A stretch of 64,000 nt of DNA from an uncultured Acidimicrobiales bacterium (lineage in GTDB: Bacteria > Actinomycetota > Acidimicrobiia > Acidimicrobiales > SZUA-35): NCBI GenBank assembly GCA_937922785.1, contig CALAJQ010000022.1, forward strand, positions 50,847 through 114,846, written 5' to 3'. A program made the position numbers and the translations under genes. Shown here piece by piece: positions 48,042-57,102 of this stretch. The stretch's first letter is position 1. Every line of letters starts with the position of its first letter. The notes under the pieces are model-generated. The model was not told where the DNA came from. It saw only the letters and a list, made by a program, of their open reading frames with translations, and ran no database searches.

Positions 48042-48090
48042 CAATACGGGCGGAGTCTCACCCAGCGAGAACTACTCCGTATCTTCTCTG
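48042..48090. repeat. TACGG...CTCCGTA repeat, copy 3 (holds the AbiEi/DUF559 stop)
   Basis: Tandem with copy 2 (61-bp period). On the minus strand its right end encodes EDTE followed by TAG, the natural end of the overlapping gene. Confidence 0.85.
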
Positions 48091-49019
48091 GGAACTTTTC
48101 TTGGGAGATAGTTGGCGAGCTGCGCTGTGACGTAGTCGGGCCGATCGGCGACGTCCCAGTAGGTGAACCGAACCAGCCTCCAACCCAAGCTAATCAGATC
48201 ATTCTGACGCTTCAGGTCGGCCTGCAACTGCTCGGGAGTCGAATGGGCCAGCATCGAATCACACTCGACTAACAACTGATGCTCGGGCCACGCAAAGTCG
48301 ACAAAGTACGAGCGGCCGCCAACCGAAACGTGATGCTGGCTAACACACTCGGGAAAGCCAGCGGCTCCGAACAACCGCTCCGCCATTTGCTCGTAGCTGT
48401 TCAGCTCGCGGCCACCATCTTCGATACGAAGTGCCAAGACCTTTCGCAGAATCGACACTCCCTTCTTGCCCGGCCGCGACAACTCAGCAATACGCTGCGC
48501 CACTTCTTCGTAAGTGAACAGCTGGCGCCTAACGCCATCGCTAAGTTGCAAGCCAATTGTCTCGGCCGAACAGTGCTGGCAGCTGTCCAATACCGACCGG
48601 CTCGGCGTAGTCACGCGGATGCCCGAGAGCAGGGTGACATCAACATCGCGAAGGTCTGCGAGTTCTTTCGTAGTCACATATTGCGACGTCGAACGAAAGC
48701 CCTTTGGCCCAACCACTTGAACTTTGGACCGTGACCCGCCAGGCAAACCCCACATCTCCAAGGCCGATCGACCGCCGATGGCTTGTTGTTCCGACATGAG
48801 CTTTGCCGCCAATTGCACGGCTTCGTCGAATCCGAAACTCTGCCCGCCAACCCGGTAGACGCCTCGATGAAAGCGAACGAGCAGCTCGTTGGCACACCAG
48901 CGAGCCGCGGTCTTGTTGGGGACGCCCAAGTCTTTGAGCTCGGCGCTTGTGATGAACCCACCGTTGCGTTCTGCAGTTGAGCGCACTCGGTCGAACCGAG
49001 CCAGGACCGTTTTTGCCAT
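48072..49019 (-). CDS. AbiEi-type antitoxin-domain / DUF559 nuclease-fold protein
   Basis: About 315 residues. The N-terminus resembles AbiEi winged-helix antitoxin proteins (GGFITSAELKDLGVPNKTAARWCANELLVRFHRGVYRVGG). The C-terminus is a DUF559/Vsr-like restriction-endonuclease fold: YFVDFAWPEHQLLVECDSMLAHSTPEQLQADLKRQNDLISLGWRLVRFTYWDV, with the acidic D-x-x and E-x-D residues present. No AbiEii toxin is adjacent, so the toxin-antitoxin role is unproven. The start ATG 49019 follows GGTGG at good spacing; the track start (49139) extends into repeat-flanked sequence. Its last residues and stop lie inside a repeat. Confidence 0.85.
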   Translation of the reverse strand: MAKTVLARFDRVRSTAERNGGFITSAELKDLGVPNKTAARWCANELLVRFHRGVYRVGGQSFGFDEAVQLAAKLMSEQQAIGGRSALEMWGLPGGSRSKVQVVGPKGFRSTSQYVTTKELADLRDVDVTLLSGIRVTTPSRSVLDSCQHCSAETIGLQLSDGVRRQLFTYEEVAQRIAELSRPGKKGVSILRKVLALRIEDGGRELNSYEQMAERLFGAAGFPECVSQHHVSVGGRSYFVDFAWPEHQLLVECDSMLAHSTPEQLQADLKRQNDLISLGWRLVRFTYWDVADRPDYVTAQLANYLPRKVPREDTE

Positions 49020-49140
49020 TGAAACCACCAAGGGTTCGTAGGTTCCGGAGCCAAAGGTCGCTCGATAGCTCCAAGGTAGCGGCGCCGAACAGATCTTCGG
49101 CCGGACACGGGCACCACCTGCTATCACTGCCACCTGCAAT

Positions 49141-49212: not shown

Positions 49213-49258
49213 CAGTACAGCCGAAGTCTCACCCAGCGGGCACTACTCCGTATCTTTT
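49213..49258. repeat. TACGG...CTCCGTA repeat, copy 5 (holds the DUF1932 gene stop)
   Basis: Right end ACTACTCCGTATCTTTTA. On the minus strand it encodes KDTE and then TAG, so it forms the exact 3' end of the dehydrogenase gene. Confidence 0.85.
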
Positions 49259-50085
49259 AACCGATCTCTTAGCCGGGCGAACACTTCGTCTTCGCTCGGA
49301 CTTGTGTTTTTGAAAGCGGCTAGCCGTTCGTAGAGTTCGGCTGCCCCGAGGTGGAAGCCTTCCGGAAGAGCAACGGCTCCAAGAGTTGCGGCGATCTCTT
49401 CCATCTCGCCCGCAAATCGCCAGGCCTTGGGAGCCACACCGGTTGCAGTTCGTTCGAGACGAGCGCCAAGGGCCGGCTGACTCAAGTCCCACTCGGCCCG
49501 TAACGAATCCATCACACCTTCACTCTCAGCTAGCGCAGCGACGGCCAACAACAAGGCCGCTGACCCCTTGGTCCAACCGGCATAAGCCATCTTCAAGGCC
49601 GACGCCTCCCCCGGCCGGGTCCCGATGGCGCGCACGTCCAGGTTTGAGCCGTCCCAACAAGAAGCGACTGTCGACGTCAACTCAACAGGACCGCTCAAGT
49701 ACAGCCGGGTTAGGCCAGGAGCGGTCGGTGGCGGACCGACCACCGATCCGTCCACAAAGCGCTCGAACAGCACGCCGATCGACCGGGTCCGTTCCGGAGA
49801 GATCGCGTTTGCGTCGACGTAGATCCCATCGAAACCTATGGCCGCAACATCTCGGGCCACATCGACTGCCGCGGCTGGCGGGCAAATCGACACCACAACC
49901 TCAACCGCGCTTAGGAGCTCTGCAAGCGATCCCACCGACTCAAGCCCCGCTGTGGCGGCACGATCAGCCGTCTCAGCGGAGCGGCCAGCATCCACCCACA
50001 AGCGCCGGTCAGCCACGCAACAGGCGCCAAGTTCGGAGCCCATCGCTCCGGGGTGCAAGAAACCAATAGCCAAAGTTGAGTTCAT
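49243..50085 (-). CDS. NAD(P)-binding 6-phosphogluconate dehydrogenase-like / DUF1932 protein
   Basis: About 280 residues. The Rossmann N-terminus is TLAIGFLHPGAMGSELGACC (GxxxxG-type), followed by VVVSICPPAAAVDVARDVAAIGFDGIYVDANAISPERT, the beta-hydroxyacid dehydrogenase pattern. The C-terminal all-helical domain (LKMAYAGWTKGSAALLLAVAALAESEGVMDSLRAEW) fits DUF1932 with the conserved lysine. Substrate unknown. The ATG at 50085 is preferred to the track start. Divergent from the Hsp90-like gene; its stop lies in a repeat copy. Confidence 0.87.
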   Translation of the reverse strand: MNSTLAIGFLHPGAMGSELGACCVADRRLWVDAGRSAETADRAATAGLESVGSLAELLSAVEVVVSICPPAAAVDVARDVAAIGFDGIYVDANAISPERTRSIGVLFERFVDGSVVGPPPTAPGLTRLYLSGPVELTSTVASCWDGSNLDVRAIGTRPGEASALKMAYAGWTKGSAALLLAVAALAESEGVMDSLRAEWDLSQPALGARLERTATGVAPKAWRFAGEMEEIAATLGAVALPEGFHLGAAELYERLAAFKNTSPSEDEVFARLRDRLKDTE

Positions 50086-50178
50086 AGTGCAGTCTTTCAC
50101 GGGGCCGCACCGCTGGCCTCATCTCTTACAGGTCGCCCCGAACTCGGCCGATGAGATCACTAATGTTGAAGTTTCGCC

Positions 50179-52044
50179 ATGACTGACCAATCCCCCAAGC
50201 CCAGATTAACCAGCGCGCCAATTTCTGGTATCGAACGATTCGACACTGGTGTGAACCTTGGCGGCCTGATGAGCGTGCTTAGCGAGCACCTGTACTCCAC
50301 CCCCGACGTTGCTGTCCGTGAGCTGGTGCAAAACGCCCACGACTCGATCCTTCGTCGCCGCTGGATGGAAAACAACGGTCAATCGACGTTGAGCAACGAA
50401 GACCCACAGATCCGGGTGACCACCGACACTGTGGCCCAAACTTTGGAAGTCGCGGACAACGGCTCGGGCCTCACTCAAGACGAAATCCATCAAATGCTCG
50501 CGACCATCGGCGTGGGAGCTACTGGCCAACTGCGCCAGGAAACCGAAAACCCTGACCTGATCGGCTTGTTCGGTCTTGGCTTCCTGTCAACCTTTGTTGT
50601 TGCCGACGAGGTCGTGGTCACCACCACGAGCGCCAAGACGCCAACGGAGACCTTTCAATACCGAAGCGCAGACGGATATTCATACTCGGTGCTTCCAGCC
50701 CAAACCGCTGCAGTCGGCACCACTGTGACACTCCAGTTGAAGGCGGGCTACAGCGACCTCAGCAACGACCGAATGATTCTGAGCATCCTTGACCGTTACT
50801 GCCGCTTGCTGAACATCCCGATCTCGTTGAACAACGGCCCTGCCATCAACCTCGACGCCCCTTGGCGTTGGGAGTCAAGCACTCGTGAGGATCGTCTGAA
50901 GTTCGCCGCGGCGTTCGATCAGCGATTCGAACCGCTGGCCGCTGTGCCCATCGAAGCTGAAGGCCAATCGGTGCGAGGCCAGATGTGGGTGCACGGCGGG
51001 TCAACCTATGGGAACGCCGACAACCGCTCAATGTCGGTATTCGTGCGAGGCATGTTGCTGGCCGAGAATGACATAGACCTACTCCCCCGCTGGGCCGGTT
51101 TTGTAAGCGGTGTGATCGAGTCGCCCGATCTCACGCCTACTGCCAGCCGTGAGACGTTACAGAACGACGCGGCCTACACCGAAGCTCAGATGGTCATCGC
51201 CGAGGCGTTGATCGTTGGCCTCTCCGACACAGCGCTGCACGACCCGCCAGCTTGGCGCCGAATTCTTCAGCGTCACAGTCAGGCGTTGCTCGGTGCTGCG
51301 GTAACTGACGACCGACTCTTCCAACTAGTGGCGGATCAGGTTGTACTGCCCAGTACACAGGGCGAACGAACTGTTGCGGCGCTTCGCCACGGCCGACGGC
51401 TGTATGTGTCGCTCGGTGCCGATGGTGGATTTGAAGAGTTGCTCTTCCTGGCTCGTGGCATTCCCGTGATCAACGGCAGCCGCTACGGCGTGGTTCCTTT
51501 CCTACGCATGTATGCCAACAAGCATGGGCTCGACGTTGTAGAAATTGGCACCGATGGCGGCAACGCCGATGTGTTTGAACCCGTCACGCTTGCCGACAAT
51601 GACTTGCAGTGGCTTCAGGCAGAGTTAGCCAGCGAAGGCGAAGCGATCTATCCGGCCCGCTTCGACCCCGAGGAAGTTCCGCTAGTGGTAGTTCCCGACA
51701 GGGAAGCCGAGCTGAAGCAACGTCTAGAAAGCGACGAACTCGATGCCAGCGCAGGTTCGGGCGCCGCCGGCTTGGCGAGGCTGCACACGGCGGGCATCGA
51801 AGAACGTTCGCTCGTTCGTGTCTATGTGAACATGGGGTGTCCAACAGTGCAGCGCGTGTTGGAGCTGCGGGAACAGAGCCCGGTCGGAGCGATGCGTGCC
51901 GCAACGCTGTTGCGCACACTCAAGACAATGATGGCCGCCAGCGACCGAGGTCGGGGCGGGTCAGTCGGCGTCACCCAAGCTCTTAGCGACGCCCTAATGG
52001 TGATTGATGGCCTACTAATCGAAGGAATGGTTGCCGATGAGTAA
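50179..52044 (+). CDS. Hsp90-like (HtpG-related) GHKL ATPase
   Basis: 621 residues, divergent from housekeeping HtpG but with all nucleotide-binding motifs: SEHLYSTPDVAVRELVQNAHDSILRR (catalytic Glu, Asn), VADNGSGLTQDEIHQMLATIG (DxGxG), GLFGLGFLSTFVVADEV, and the middle-domain arginine in TPTASRETLQ. A C-terminal helical region is present. Such proteins remodel client proteins in an ATP-dependent cycle. It overlaps by 8 bp (ATGAGTAA) with a TPR-like gene, suggesting a dedicated partner. TPR proteins are classic Hsp90 co-chaperones in eukaryotes, so the pairing is suggestive. The clients are unknown. Confidence 0.9.
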   Translation: MTDQSPKPRLTSAPISGIERFDTGVNLGGLMSVLSEHLYSTPDVAVRELVQNAHDSILRRRWMENNGQSTLSNEDPQIRVTTDTVAQTLEVADNGSGLTQDEIHQMLATIGVGATGQLRQETENPDLIGLFGLGFLSTFVVADEVVVTTTSAKTPTETFQYRSADGYSYSVLPAQTAAVGTTVTLQLKAGYSDLSNDRMILSILDRYCRLLNIPISLNNGPAINLDAPWRWESSTREDRLKFAAAFDQRFEPLAAVPIEAEGQSVRGQMWVHGGSTYGNADNRSMSVFVRGMLLAENDIDLLPRWAGFVSGVIESPDLTPTASRETLQNDAAYTEAQMVIAEALIVGLSDTALHDPPAWRRILQRHSQALLGAAVTDDRLFQLVADQVVLPSTQGERTVAALRHGRRLYVSLGADGGFEELLFLARGIPVINGSRYGVVPFLRMYANKHGLDVVEIGTDGGNADVFEPVTLADNDLQWLQAELASEGEAIYPARFDPEEVPLVVVPDREAELKQRLESDELDASAGSGAAGLARLHTAGIEERSLVRVYVNMGCPTVQRVLELREQSPVGAMRAATLLRTLKTMMAASDRGRGGSVGVTQALSDALMVIDGLLIEGMVADE

Positions 52045-54385
52045 CACGGTTGACATGTGGAGTTGGCTAGACGATGCCGACAGGCAGGTCGGTGACGATG
52101 GGCCTGGCGTGAATCGGCTCTTTAACCAGCTCAGGAAGGCCATGACCAGCGGCAACCTTGAGGGAATCCAGACTTGTCGCCGGGAGTACGAGCGTCTGGC
52201 GGCGGCCCATGAGCTTCCGTGGCTTGGAGTGTTTGGACGGCATTGGGAAGCGCAGTATCGGTTGAACTTTCTGTTTGAAGGAGCCTCAGCTGTTGGCGAT
52301 GTCGTGGCAGCTTTCGAGAAGGCTCACAGACCCGAAACTGCAGATTGTCCTCAGTCGATCTGCTCGGTGCAAGACCTGGCAATCGTGTATGGAAATGTCG
52401 ATGGACCCGGCTACGCCGAGGCTACGTTGGCTGCCACCAAAGACGCCATGGCCCGGATCGACTCGTCGTGGCCATGCTGGGATTGCCTCTCGCTGGAGAC
52501 AATCGACGGGTTGGAGCACGCCGGTCGCCATGACGAAGCGCTCGAGCTGTTGACCGAGACTGAGGTGGAGCTTCGATCCACCGGCGCGAATCCAAGCACG
52601 GCCTATGCAAGGCATCATCTGGAGCAATTGTTGAATGTGGGTCGAGACGAAGACGCATTGGCCTTCGATGAGGCTTTAGTTCGAAGTCGCTATGACTCCC
52701 ACGATGAGGACGACTGGCCCCTTTATGAGATGCATCGAGGACGCGCGTTGTTGCGTAACGGCAGGACCGATGAGGCAGTCGCGATTCTGGAGGGGTCTGC
52801 AAACCCGGTCGAGTGGCCCCGCTATGCCCTGGCTTGGATGTCCTTGACAACCGAACTGATGACGGCGGGAGCGATTGAGAACGACGATTACTACTCGGCC
52901 ATGACTGTCCGCATTGCCCAGCACTTCAAATCGGGAGGCGCTTGGCGCCGAGCTTTCGACACCGGTATTCGCGCTGCACTAGCCGCGGCCCAACGAGGTG
53001 CTGTGGGGTCGGCCAAGCGCTCACGAGACTTTTGTGCAGAGGTGATGGAGAACCTAGTTAAGCCTCTGGACGCTCCGGAAAAGTTGGCATCCGTTGATAC
53101 CGCCATCGCAAACGCACCCGAATCGATTAGCGGCACCGCTCCAATCGATCAGCAGGTAGCCCAGTTCGAGCGCATGTTGGCGGCCGAGTTCAACCCCGAA
53201 ACATTCGCCCACTACGCCGAGCTTCTGCGCACTCAGGGTTGGACCGAGCTGGCCGGAAAGAAGCTGTGGGACTACCTCGTTGAGCACCCTGACAATGTGG
53301 AATGCTGCATCACTCTGATGACTCACCTACTAGGTCCCGACGGTGACGCGTCAGGTGACCGCCTACTTGAGCTGGCGAATCTCGTCGAGGAAACGCAGTC
53401 GTCCAACGCACTGTGGATACGCGCTAACCGTCACGCCCGGCTAGAGGAATGGGACGATTGTGGACAAGCGTGCGCGGAAATCGTCGCACAAGATCCGAGC
53501 GTGGTGAACACTCGCCGCCTCTGGGCCCACGCCATGAGGTCGGTTGGAAACTATCCCTACGCTGCCGAATTGTCGGCGAAGATTCTCGAGCTAGGCGAGC
53601 GCCTTGCAGACGAGCCACCGCAGTTGTCAGCCAAGCCAACCAAAGTTGAAGCCGAACAAGCTCAGGCCTACCGGCAGCGCAGCTCCGATCTTTGGGCGGC
53701 GATGCTTAACGGAACTCTGGGTGAGTCCTGGGCAGTAGTTCGCTCTGCTGCAGCAGAGCTAGAGATGGAACTGTCGAGCGATAGTGGACCTATCGAGGAG
53801 CAATGGGAGCACTGCCTAGTCTCGTTCACCGATGATGACGGAGTGCGACGAAGCCAACAGGCCCAGCGCACCGGACCGGTCACTGCAAGAGTTGCTCAGG
53901 TGGCATTCCCTAGGCAGGTGCAAAGGTTTGGCGCCCGCATCGTATTCGAGCCGACGCCGCTTAACGCACTCCCACCAGACGCAACCGAGGACGAGCGTTC
54001 GCGCTGGATGCCTGACTACCCGGTGGTCGCAACTGTGGAGCCGTCGAACATGATCAGCTACGCAGTTGAAGGCGTTTTTCCAGATGACGACGACCCAGCC
54101 GCATGGCTCGAATTCAGAACTGCGTTGTTCGATGCGGGCTATCCGGTGTGGATCTACGGAGCGGGCACCGACACCTTGCGGGCCACCGGCGAGGAACGAT
54201 CAGTGTTGCTGCTAGCAGTTGCGGTCGATGCCAACGCCGAGCCCGCAGCCTTGAGCGAGCTGATTGCAGAACTGACCGCCAACTGGCCTCATCCGTTGGC
54301 GTGGCCAGCGTTAGTAGAGGCCGCTGGTGGCGACCGCGCCGAACACGACGAACGGCTAAGCAGTATGTGGGGCTCGGAGGACTAG
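52037..54385 (+). CDS. Large TPR-like protein partnered with the Hsp90-like ATPase
   Basis: About 782 residues with no catalytic signature. The N-terminal two thirds is alpha-helical with degenerate tetratricopeptide-like pairs (for example AVAILEGSANPVEWPRYALAWM, FERMLAAEFNPETFAHYAELLRTQGWTELAGKKLWDYLVEHPDNVE, WDDCGQACAEIVAQDPSVVNTRRLWAHAMRSVGNYPYAAELSAKILEL). The C-terminal roughly 200 residues form a mixed alpha/beta domain (CLVSFTDDDGVRRSQQ, RFGARIVFEPTPL) that I cannot assign. The ATG overlaps the Hsp90 stop; the upstream TTG in the track is not needed. Convergent with the cyclase gene. Confidence 0.8.
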   Translation: MSNTVDMWSWLDDADRQVGDDGPGVNRLFNQLRKAMTSGNLEGIQTCRREYERLAAAHELPWLGVFGRHWEAQYRLNFLFEGASAVGDVVAAFEKAHRPETADCPQSICSVQDLAIVYGNVDGPGYAEATLAATKDAMARIDSSWPCWDCLSLETIDGLEHAGRHDEALELLTETEVELRSTGANPSTAYARHHLEQLLNVGRDEDALAFDEALVRSRYDSHDEDDWPLYEMHRGRALLRNGRTDEAVAILEGSANPVEWPRYALAWMSLTTELMTAGAIENDDYYSAMTVRIAQHFKSGGAWRRAFDTGIRAALAAAQRGAVGSAKRSRDFCAEVMENLVKPLDAPEKLASVDTAIANAPESISGTAPIDQQVAQFERMLAAEFNPETFAHYAELLRTQGWTELAGKKLWDYLVEHPDNVECCITLMTHLLGPDGDASGDRLLELANLVEETQSSNALWIRANRHARLEEWDDCGQACAEIVAQDPSVVNTRRLWAHAMRSVGNYPYAAELSAKILELGERLADEPPQLSAKPTKVEAEQAQAYRQRSSDLWAAMLNGTLGESWAVVRSAAAELEMELSSDSGPIEEQWEHCLVSFTDDDGVRRSQQAQRTGPVTARVAQVAFPRQVQRFGARIVFEPTPLNALPPDATEDERSRWMPDYPVVATVEPSNMISYAVEGVFPDDDDPAAWLEFRTALFDAGYPVWIYGAGTDTLRATGEERSVLLLAVAVDANAEPAALSELIAELTANWPHPLAWPALVEAAGGDRAEHDERLSSMWGSED

Positions 54386-54405: not shown

Positions 54406-57102
54406 TCACGCCGGAGAGGCGACCTGCTCCGAAGCTTGAGTTGCTACCCAGGCTTGGGCTTCTTCGTGAATCTCGGGGAGCGTCGATGTCTCTAGAGGGC
54501 TCTCGTCGTTGAGACCGACGAGGGCACGAAGGTGCCGATAGAGGCCGATGACAACGCCAGTCCCAGGGCGAACTTTGGAGTGGCGAACAGCGGTGATCCA
54601 ACGCCGACTTCGTTCGGCATCGCCTTGCAGATGGGCAAGGGTGATGTAGGGCAATAGCAAGTCCGGCAAGCCGTCGGCACCCGACTGTTGTAACAACACG
54701 TTGGCGTCATCAAGGTGCAGGGTCATGTCGCCGACCTCGCCAGCGGCGGCCGCACCCATTGCTTGGTACAGATGCATCCACCAGTCATGATCAAGCCCTA
54801 GTGCCACCGCAGTTGCAAAACAATCCCTGGCCGCGGTTCGGGCAACTTCAGGGTCACTGGTGAGGTTGGCAACCATCTTGGCTTGCAGAGTCATAATGGT
54901 TGTGTTGTCAACCTGGTCTCCATCCAGCCGAGGTTCAAGCTCGGCCAACACTTCTTTCACGTCATCGACGGATCCGATCATCGCCGCGTAGTGAGCCCGG
55001 TAGGCCAGCGTTGCGTCAACGAGCGTTTCGGCGCCGAGGTCACTGGCAATCGACTGAGCCTCGTCGAGGTTGGCGAATGCTTGGGGAGGGTTTCGAAGAA
55101 CTTCGGTGAAGCTGGCCACGATAAGGGCAACTACAAGCTCGGTAGACGGGCCATGCATTCGATACAGCCTGACCGCTTCGTCAGCGCCGTGAGCTAACCA
55201 CCGCCTGTCACGAGCCGCTCGAGCAGCCCCGGCCGCCGCAAGGTTCAAAGACGCGGACTGAAGCGTCGAGAGATCTTGTGTTTCGTGATAACGCTCGACC
55301 CGCTCGATCAACGCCGTCGCACGCTGGCCAGTCTCACGGCTGTAGGCCCACCGCATGCCACCAATCATCTCCGCCAGATCGTCCAGCCGTTCTGATGTAG
55401 CCAACCGCTCCTCGACCGCACGATGATCGTCGTAATGTCGAATCACCCAACCTGCAAGCGAGACCGACTGGTAGTTGTTGTCGACGCCATGAGTCTTCAG
55501 GTAGTCGAGCAACCAGTTTGTGTGGGCGTCGAAGTAACGCGCTGGGTCTTCGTCGAGCTCCCATTGCTTGCGAACAAACAGCTTCACAGTTTCAAGCAAA
55601 CGACTTGAGCCGTGCCCGTCACCAGAAACAAGCCCACGATCGGTTAATCCGCCGAGGTTGAACGCGACGCTGAAACTGTCTTCAACTATTCCCTCGGCGT
55701 CGGCCAGTTCGAACGATGACGGGAACGCGGCCAAGAACTTCAGTAGATCCTGCTCGGCAGCATCAAGCATTGACCATGAGTCATTGAGAACTTCTAACAG
55801 GCTGGCGTGGCGACGCTTGCGTCTGTTGGTTCGACTACGAGTGAGCAGTTCGAAACGACGGTCAAGCCGTTCGGCAAGCTCGCTCAGGGTTAGCTGACGA
55901 AGTTGCGCAGCCGCCAGTTCGATTGAAAGAGGCAGACCGTCAAGCTGGCGACAGATGTGAGCCACAATCTCGGTGTCATCGCCGGTTATCTTTGCGCCGA
56001 CGCGGGCGGCGCTTGAGCTGAAGAGCTGCACGGCCGGAGCATCAATTGACGATTCAACGAGCAGCGGCGAAACCCGAACTTGGTTTTCACCGGGAAGGTC
56101 AAGCGGCTCGCGGCTTGTAGCTAGAAGGCTGACCGTCGCCGTGCTTTCCAGCAGAACGTCGGCGACGTCTGCCACGTCGTCGGTGACGTGCTCGCAGTTG
56201 TCGAGGATGATCAACATCTCTTTGCCCGAGGCTTGGGAGGCAAGGGCGCCAACAATGTCGCCACCGGCCAGACGAAGGCCAGCGGCACTGGCGATTGCTT
56301 CGGCCACACTTTCTGCGTCAACGGTTGGCACAAGATCTACGAACCAAACGCCGTCGGCAAAACGTTCCTCAACTTCTGCCGCAACCGCAGTGCCTAGGCG
56401 GGTCTTGCCGGAGCCGCCCATGCCCAGCAAAGTGACTAGACGGTTATCGCTGACCAGCTTGGAGAGGTTGTTGATGTCTTCCTCACGCCCAACAAGCGGC
56501 GTGCGTTCTACCGGCAAGTTGTGGTGATCTTGGCGCAGCGTTTTCAGCGGCGGGAACGACTGGGTGCCCACTTGCCACAGATGGGCCGGCGCGGCGAGGT
56601 CCTTCATGCGGTGTTCGCCAAGATCGCATAGTTGAGTGGTGTCAATGGTCTGGGCTGCGTCGTCGGACAGCACGATTTGGCCGCCGTGAATTGCCGACAC
56701 GATGCGTGCTGTGCGGTTCAAGACCTGCCCGAAGTAGTCATTGTCACGCTCTTCAGCTTCACCCAAATGAATCCCAACCCGAACCCTGATTGGGGTGGTG
56801 TCGGGCCACGGTTCGTCGGCGATTTTCTGCTGGATTTGCCGAGCAGACTGCAGAGCGTCTGTGACGGTGTGGAAGGCGGCCACGTACTGGTCGCCGGCAA
56901 GCGAGAAGACATACCCGTCACTAGCTTCGATTGACTGGGCAACGATTTGGTCGTGACGGCGCAGCGACTTTTTCATTACATCGGGGTGATTGTCCCACAT
57001 CTGGGTGGAGCCTTGAACGTCGGTAAACATGAAGGCGACTCGGCCCGAAGGAATGCCCGAAATCGGTTCAACCGTTTGTGCTGCGCCCCCGACTCTTCCC
57101 AT
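54406..57102 (-). CDS. Class III nucleotide cyclase fused to NB-ARC/STAND ATPase
   Basis: 898 residues. The N-terminal cyclase domain (about 15-190) reads VAFMFTDVQGSTQMWDNH, then FSLAGDQYVAAFHTVTDALQSA, with both metal aspartates. The STAND ATPase has Walker A LLGMGGSGKTRLG and Walker B MLIILDNCEHV. An all-helical TPR-like C-terminal region (about 570-890) follows. Many actinobacterial relatives end in a LuxR helix-turn-helix; none is visible here, so the output may be cyclic nucleotide rather than DNA binding. ATG start, monocistronic. Confidence 0.92.
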   Translation of the reverse strand: MGRVGGAAQTVEPISGIPSGRVAFMFTDVQGSTQMWDNHPDVMKKSLRRHDQIVAQSIEASDGYVFSLAGDQYVAAFHTVTDALQSARQIQQKIADEPWPDTTPIRVRVGIHLGEAEERDNDYFGQVLNRTARIVSAIHGGQIVLSDDAAQTIDTTQLCDLGEHRMKDLAAPAHLWQVGTQSFPPLKTLRQDHHNLPVERTPLVGREEDINNLSKLVSDNRLVTLLGMGGSGKTRLGTAVAAEVEERFADGVWFVDLVPTVDAESVAEAIASAAGLRLAGGDIVGALASQASGKEMLIILDNCEHVTDDVADVADVLLESTATVSLLATSREPLDLPGENQVRVSPLLVESSIDAPAVQLFSSSAARVGAKITGDDTEIVAHICRQLDGLPLSIELAAAQLRQLTLSELAERLDRRFELLTRSRTNRRKRRHASLLEVLNDSWSMLDAAEQDLLKFLAAFPSSFELADAEGIVEDSFSVAFNLGGLTDRGLVSGDGHGSSRLLETVKLFVRKQWELDEDPARYFDAHTNWLLDYLKTHGVDNNYQSVSLAGWVIRHYDDHRAVEERLATSERLDDLAEMIGGMRWAYSRETGQRATALIERVERYHETQDLSTLQSASLNLAAAGAARAARDRRWLAHGADEAVRLYRMHGPSTELVVALIVASFTEVLRNPPQAFANLDEAQSIASDLGAETLVDATLAYRAHYAAMIGSVDDVKEVLAELEPRLDGDQVDNTTIMTLQAKMVANLTSDPEVARTAARDCFATAVALGLDHDWWMHLYQAMGAAAAGEVGDMTLHLDDANVLLQQSGADGLPDLLLPYITLAHLQGDAERSRRWITAVRHSKVRPGTGVVIGLYRHLRALVGLNDESPLETSTLPEIHEEAQAWVATQASEQVASPA

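Follow-up and report, generated by a model that had tools for sequence, protein, structure and literature searches.

A divergent bacterial Hsp90 and a large TPR protein form a widespread gene pair that probably encodes a chaperone and its dedicated partner

Tetratricopeptide repeat (TPR) co-chaperones of Hsp90 are treated as a eukaryotic feature, and to our knowledge bacteria are usually said to have no dedicated Hsp90 partner protein. Here we describe a gene pair from an uncultured Acidimicrobiales bacterium (assembly GCA_937922785.1, contig CALAJQ010000022.1) in which an Hsp90-like gene is followed by the gene for a large TPR-like protein. The pair lies within a 64,000-nucleotide stretch of DNA, hereafter the window, where it was pointed out by a first-pass annotation made from the sequence alone. 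The pairing of the two families is genuine and widespread and, to judge from the literature, apparently unreported; our literature search found no paper on the pair. The sequence evidence is best read as an ATP-driven Hsp90 that probably acts with a dedicated, co-translated TPR co-chaperone or adaptor. The analysis establishes the overlap of the two genes, the intact ATPase residues, a near-perfect co-occurrence over several phyla and the absence of an MEEVD tail from the Hsp90.

Homologues of the window Hsp90 were searched for in 84,980 species genomes and the best 80, which share 43–50% identity, were kept. They span Xanthomonas, Stenotrophomonas, Escherichia, Kitasatospora/Streptomyces, Myxococcota, Chloroflexi, Acidimicrobiia and others. 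A member of the TPR family was found in the same locus in 79 of these 80 (Proteobacteria, Actinobacteria, Myxococcota and Chloroflexi); at 78 loci the TPR gene follows the Hsp90 gene on the same strand, at one it lies upstream and from one it is absent, so Hsp90 homologues of this kind do not routinely occur without it. The two genes overlap or are separated by at most 50 bp in 21 of 29 representative pairs, and a second genome from the window organism's own family carries the pair with an ATGA overlap. In four Myxococcota the TPR gene is ~0.5–3 kb from the Hsp90 gene.

As these 80 loci are skewed towards Xanthomonadaceae and Kitasatospora, an independent sample of 229 Gammaproteobacteria was taken. 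The Hsp90 subfamily was present in three of them and the TPR family in the same three, adjacent each time, although one of these Hsp90 genes is truncated at the edge of its contig and one of the TPR genes is short. The TPR family thus accompanied the Hsp90 subfamily in 3/3 genomes, as opposed to 0/226 genomes without it (hypergeometric p ~5e-7). Among E. coli genomes the locus was found in 248 of 5426, on the chromosome in every case and with at least 80% of the two-gene query covered in all 248; in the strains inspected it is flanked by fdhD and yiiG. Chance is excluded as the source of the pairing.

Both open reading frames in the window and their 8-bp overlap, ATGAGTAA, were borne out exactly as first annotated. 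Judged from the layout, the Hsp90 and TPR genes are a two-gene transcription unit, because they are bounded by one divergent gene (DUF1932) and one convergent gene (cyclase-STAND). No sigma-70-type promoter match was found for the pair, a result that is weakly informative in a host of this kind.

The Hsp90 ATPase motifs that had been recognized in the sequence are intact, and every catalytic position examined is invariant across 81 family members. PF13589 and PF00183 both score above cut-off. The AlphaFold2 (AF2) model of the protein (predicted local distance difference test score, pLDDT, 82.8) matched HtpG, TRAP1 and Hsp90 over the full length, including the C-terminal domain (~650 columns, template modelling score, TM, ~0.7), and by this model the window protein is a full-length Hsp90 with N-M-C architecture. 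It fails the NCBIfam models of both HtpG (201 bits, cut-off 371) and PRK14083/NF010683 (295 bits, cut-off 455). A tree of 78 sequences, built by a quick method and with long branches flagged, placed the window Hsp90 in a clade distinct both from HtpG (Shimodaira-Hasegawa-like approximate likelihood ratio test, SH-aLRT, 100) and from the PRK14083 clade, with SH-aLRT ≥99 for each. The proposed divergence from housekeeping HtpG is therefore upheld by both clade and score.

No second Hsp90 was found besides the paired one in the window genome (95.7% complete), so the paired Hsp90 is not a paralogue beside a housekeeping HtpG there. HtpG is additionally present in E. coli, Xanthomonas and other hosts of the paired Hsp90. 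Variovorax sp. OK212 (L194) carries the paired Hsp90 ~4 kb from an HtpG gene on one contig, and a Nannocystis genome (G720) has six Hsp90-profile matches, several of them divergent.

The AF2 model of the 782-residue partner (mean pLDDT 89.5) consists of helices followed by an alpha/beta domain. The TPR region, for which helical repeats had been proposed, is predicted by this confident model to form such repeats, and the matches from Foldseek with the whole TPR model and from profile searches were TPR proteins, with a low global TM in Foldseek. The Hsp90 fold and the TPR superhelix are thus each backed by a confident model. Structure prediction assigned the C-terminus, which had been left unassigned, to an alpha/beta domain without a Pfam family; Pfam and PDB searches with it gave no match. 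Short TPR proteins (~300–320 aa) with a similar C-terminal domain and no adjacent Hsp90 were seen in two gammaproteobacteria (L197:7472-8434 and L198:5910-6815). In the N-terminal part, four near-invariant cysteines in a CPQxxC/CxxC arrangement are kept in 79 of 81 partner rows.

Other bacterial Hsp90s outside HtpG also have TPR neighbours. At 14 of 14 loci from Streptomyces relatives and Listeria, a PRK14083-type Hsp90 is followed by a member of another TPR family (~320–1030 aa) with a DCxxC motif. These partners were detected with a hidden Markov model of the partner, since blastp misses them among the long open frames of high-GC DNA, and the 14 loci are not independent, being mostly from Streptomyces relatives. 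A 15th pair, in Paenibacillus, has an ATGA-type 4-bp overlap. A Listeria partner used as query against plasmid-collection records found the six that the PRK14083-type Hsp90 had also found, together with Actinomyces oris (L206:3809-6976) and Priestia megaterium (L207:3674-4846), whose homologues of this second TPR family have no Hsp90 nearby. The Priestia homologue is without the CxxC. Outlier Hsp90s of Pseudanabaena and of one gammaproteobacterium likewise have a TPR-like gene downstream. As a control, HtpG loci had neither TPR partner family in 25 of 25 cases; among 17 HtpG neighbours checked against Pfam, no TPR protein came up, and the genes with a match had unrelated identities (adk, ftsY, helicases and others).

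Both partner families carry a conserved CxxC, and the two motifs coincide when the N-terminal profiles are aligned (hhalign probability 70%, P 4e-5). This is suggestive, though not conclusive, of a common ancestry. We hold it possible, if somewhat short of probable, that the non-HtpG Hsp90s (the window subfamily, PRK14083 and the Pseudanabaena and gammaproteobacterial outliers) ancestrally use a co-encoded TPR co-chaperone with a cysteine zinc or redox switch. In that case bacteria would have an Hsp90-TPR partnership, either sharing ancestry with that of eukaryotes or having converged on it.

We propose that the pair is a stand-alone chaperone module. Its first product would be an ATP-driven Hsp90 clamp, assumed to be a dimer, and its second a dedicated TPR co-chaperone or adaptor made beside the Hsp90 through coupled translation. 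The Hsp90 would be gripped by the TPR superhelix somewhere other than at an MEEVD tail; the four-cysteine site in the N-terminal part may hold or switch this arrangement, probably by binding a metal. The C-terminal alpha/beta domain could then select or present a specific client. The physical complex, the dimerisation, the zinc or redox role and the client presentation are all inferred.

Several findings weigh against this proposal. Thorsellia has the Hsp90 without the TPR gene, and in E. coli SCU-115 (L208, 7838-10145) the annotation gives the TPR gene a frameshift and an internal stop beside an intact Hsp90 gene. Conversely, Nonomuraea gerenzanensis has an orphan TPR-family gene (L203:5995-8271) with no Hsp90 within 6 kb, and the product of this gene has lost the CPQxxC/CxxC pattern, a single case hinting that the cysteines might serve the Hsp90 partnership. 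The Pfam TPR scores of the window partner itself are weak, and the correlated divergence of the two proteins (r = 0.96) may reflect co-inheritance only. Finally, no MEEVD-like tail was found among the C-termini of the 81 Hsp90 members, and docking through MEEVD was rejected on this ground.

The main rival to a co-chaperone is that the TPR protein is an obligate client or effector that works through its C-terminal domain, with the Hsp90 as the private chaperone that folds or activates it. The co-occurrence data fit this equally, and it would suit a TPR protein that is larger and faster-evolving than the Hsp90 (mean p-distance 0.64 vs 0.46), as well as the similar C-terminal domain in the short gammaproteobacterial proteins without an adjacent Hsp90 and the orphan TPR genes of Nonomuraea and Actinomyces oris. 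However, two partner families that differ in length and C-terminus, both of them TPR proteins, stand beside related Hsp90s; what is conserved is therefore the TPR fold and not one effector, and we consider the client reading unlikely. That the genes act separately and are merely co-inherited for expression, their adjacency reflecting transfer as one operon, would agree with the patchy distribution of the pair. Yet a TPR neighbour recurs with different non-HtpG Hsp90 clades and is drawn from different TPR families, a pattern that the transfer of a single operon leaves unexplained, and this makes separate action decidedly improbable.

The first-pass annotation placed the pair beside an AbiEi/DUF559 gene and a cyclase-STAND gene and suggested a stress or conflict function from this setting. 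The cyclase-STAND gene does adjoin the pair; the AbiEi/DUF559 gene does not, as a DUF1932/NAD-binding gene lies between. A defence system would account for these neighbours, for the patchy distribution (E. coli 248/5426, Gammaproteobacteria 3/229) and for a weak GHKL similarity to the TmtA models, the only score obtained from PADLOC, which has no model for either protein. Against it, no third gene conserved beside the pair was found across lineages, the sole family common to at least three of them being a generic ABC ATPase, and none of the viral contigs searched carries the Hsp90 or the TPR gene. The neighbours in E. coli, Salmonella and P. aeruginosa are metabolic or flagellar, synteny of the pair is stable at the genus level, and paralogues of the STAND gene occur at other places in the window genome. 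The DefensePredictor text does not mention Hsp90. The suggested stress or conflict function was thus not sustained by the neighbours, and the defence-island idea was rejected, since neither conserved neighbours nor defence models nor viral carriage spoke for it; a defence or stress-conflict role now seems very remote.

Published data on the P. aeruginosa TPR gene point in a similar direction. PA1069 is reported to share an operon with the Hsp90 gene and to be lost from an efhP mutant when calcium is high (PMC4053335); upon heat shock its mRNA goes down while htpG goes up (PMC4957987). PA1069 was also found in an adhesion proteome (PMC5541441) and in a BatR pull-down (PMC13411936). Taken together, such data speak against a role purely in heat shock and favour a specific client or process.

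Table 1 Features of the Hsp90-TPR locus and its flanking genes in the window.
Feature	Position	Strand	Basis
Hsp90-like chaperone/ATPase gene, 621 aa	50179..52044	+	ORF (open reading frame) and family matches
VRELVQNAHDS, Bergerat ATPase motif with catalytic Glu and Mg-binding Asn; E48, N52 invariant (81 members)	50314..50346	+	
VADNGSGL, nucleotide-binding Asp motif; D93, G97 invariant (81 members)	50449..50472	+	
GLFGLGFLS, glycine-rich lid motif; G129, G132, G134 invariant (81 members)	50563..50589	+	
TASRETLQ, middle-domain catalytic Arg loop; R324, Q328 invariant (81 members)	51139..51162	+	
GAAGGA, Shine-Dalgarno-like stretch inside the Hsp90 gene, 10 nt 5' of the TPR-gene ATG	52021..52026	+	
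Overlap of Hsp90 stop and TPR start, 8 bp, ATGAGTAA	52037..52044	+	Sequence
TPR partner gene, 782 aa: TPR superhelix and C-terminal domain	52037..54385	+	
TPR-like helical superhelix, residues 7-574	52055..53758	+	AF2 model, Foldseek, TPR profiles in PDB
CPQxxC...CxxC (C104, C109, C147, C150), putative metal or redox site	52346..52486	+	
C-terminal alpha/beta domain, residues 585-780, no Pfam family	53789..54376	+	AF2 model
AbiEi/DUF559 (antitoxin/transcriptional regulator and nuclease-like) fusion gene	48072..49139	-	
DUF1932/NAD-binding flanking gene, divergent, outside the module	49243..50100	-	
Guanylate cyclase-NB-ARC (STAND) flanking gene, convergent, outside the module	54406..57102	-	

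The paralogues of the cyclase-STAND protein in the window genome are 55%, 37% and 36% identical to it.

Our findings suggest that a whole branch of bacterial Hsp90s may have its own dedicated partner protein. A systematic pairing of non-HtpG Hsp90 and TPR genes, in E. coli, P. aeruginosa, Listeria, Streptomyces and Xanthomonas, would revise the picture of bacteria as free of Hsp90 co-chaperones, and the pair offers a directly testable handle on the origin of the Hsp90-TPR principle.

Among known systems, the orthologous pair of P. aeruginosa, PA1068/PA1069, shows no substantive difference from that of the window, and its TPR gene is still named hypothetical; the Hsp90 gene is taken to be PA1068, in keeping with the observed gene order. 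One literature match to the name PA1068 proved to be that of a strain. HtpG (Group A of Chen et al. 2006, PMC1525184) resembles the window Hsp90 in fold, ATPase residues and N-M-C architecture, but it forms a separate clade, has an NCBIfam model of its own that the window Hsp90 fails, and has no TPR partner (0/25 loci). Bacterial Hsp90 has been described as remodelling without identified co-chaperones (PMC7926864). The nearest named relatives are the PRK14083/NF010683 Hsp90s, probably the Group C HtpG of Chen et al. 2006, which likewise have a downstream TPR protein with a CxxC; they form a separate clade from the window Hsp90, and the window partner belongs to a different sequence family with a C-terminal alpha/beta domain.

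In eukaryotes, Hop/Sti1, FKBP51/52, PP5 and AIP are likewise TPR proteins devoted to an Hsp90, and a Hop orthologue is absent from bacteria (PMC7688965). The window pair differs from them in the lack of MEEVD, in a much longer superhelix, in the cysteine site and in another C-terminal domain. The parallel with the eukaryotic principle that was drawn at the outset thus stands for a dedicated, conserved and often translationally coupled TPR partner but not for a literal copy of the docking mode, which is not reused because the Hsp90 has no MEEVD tail.

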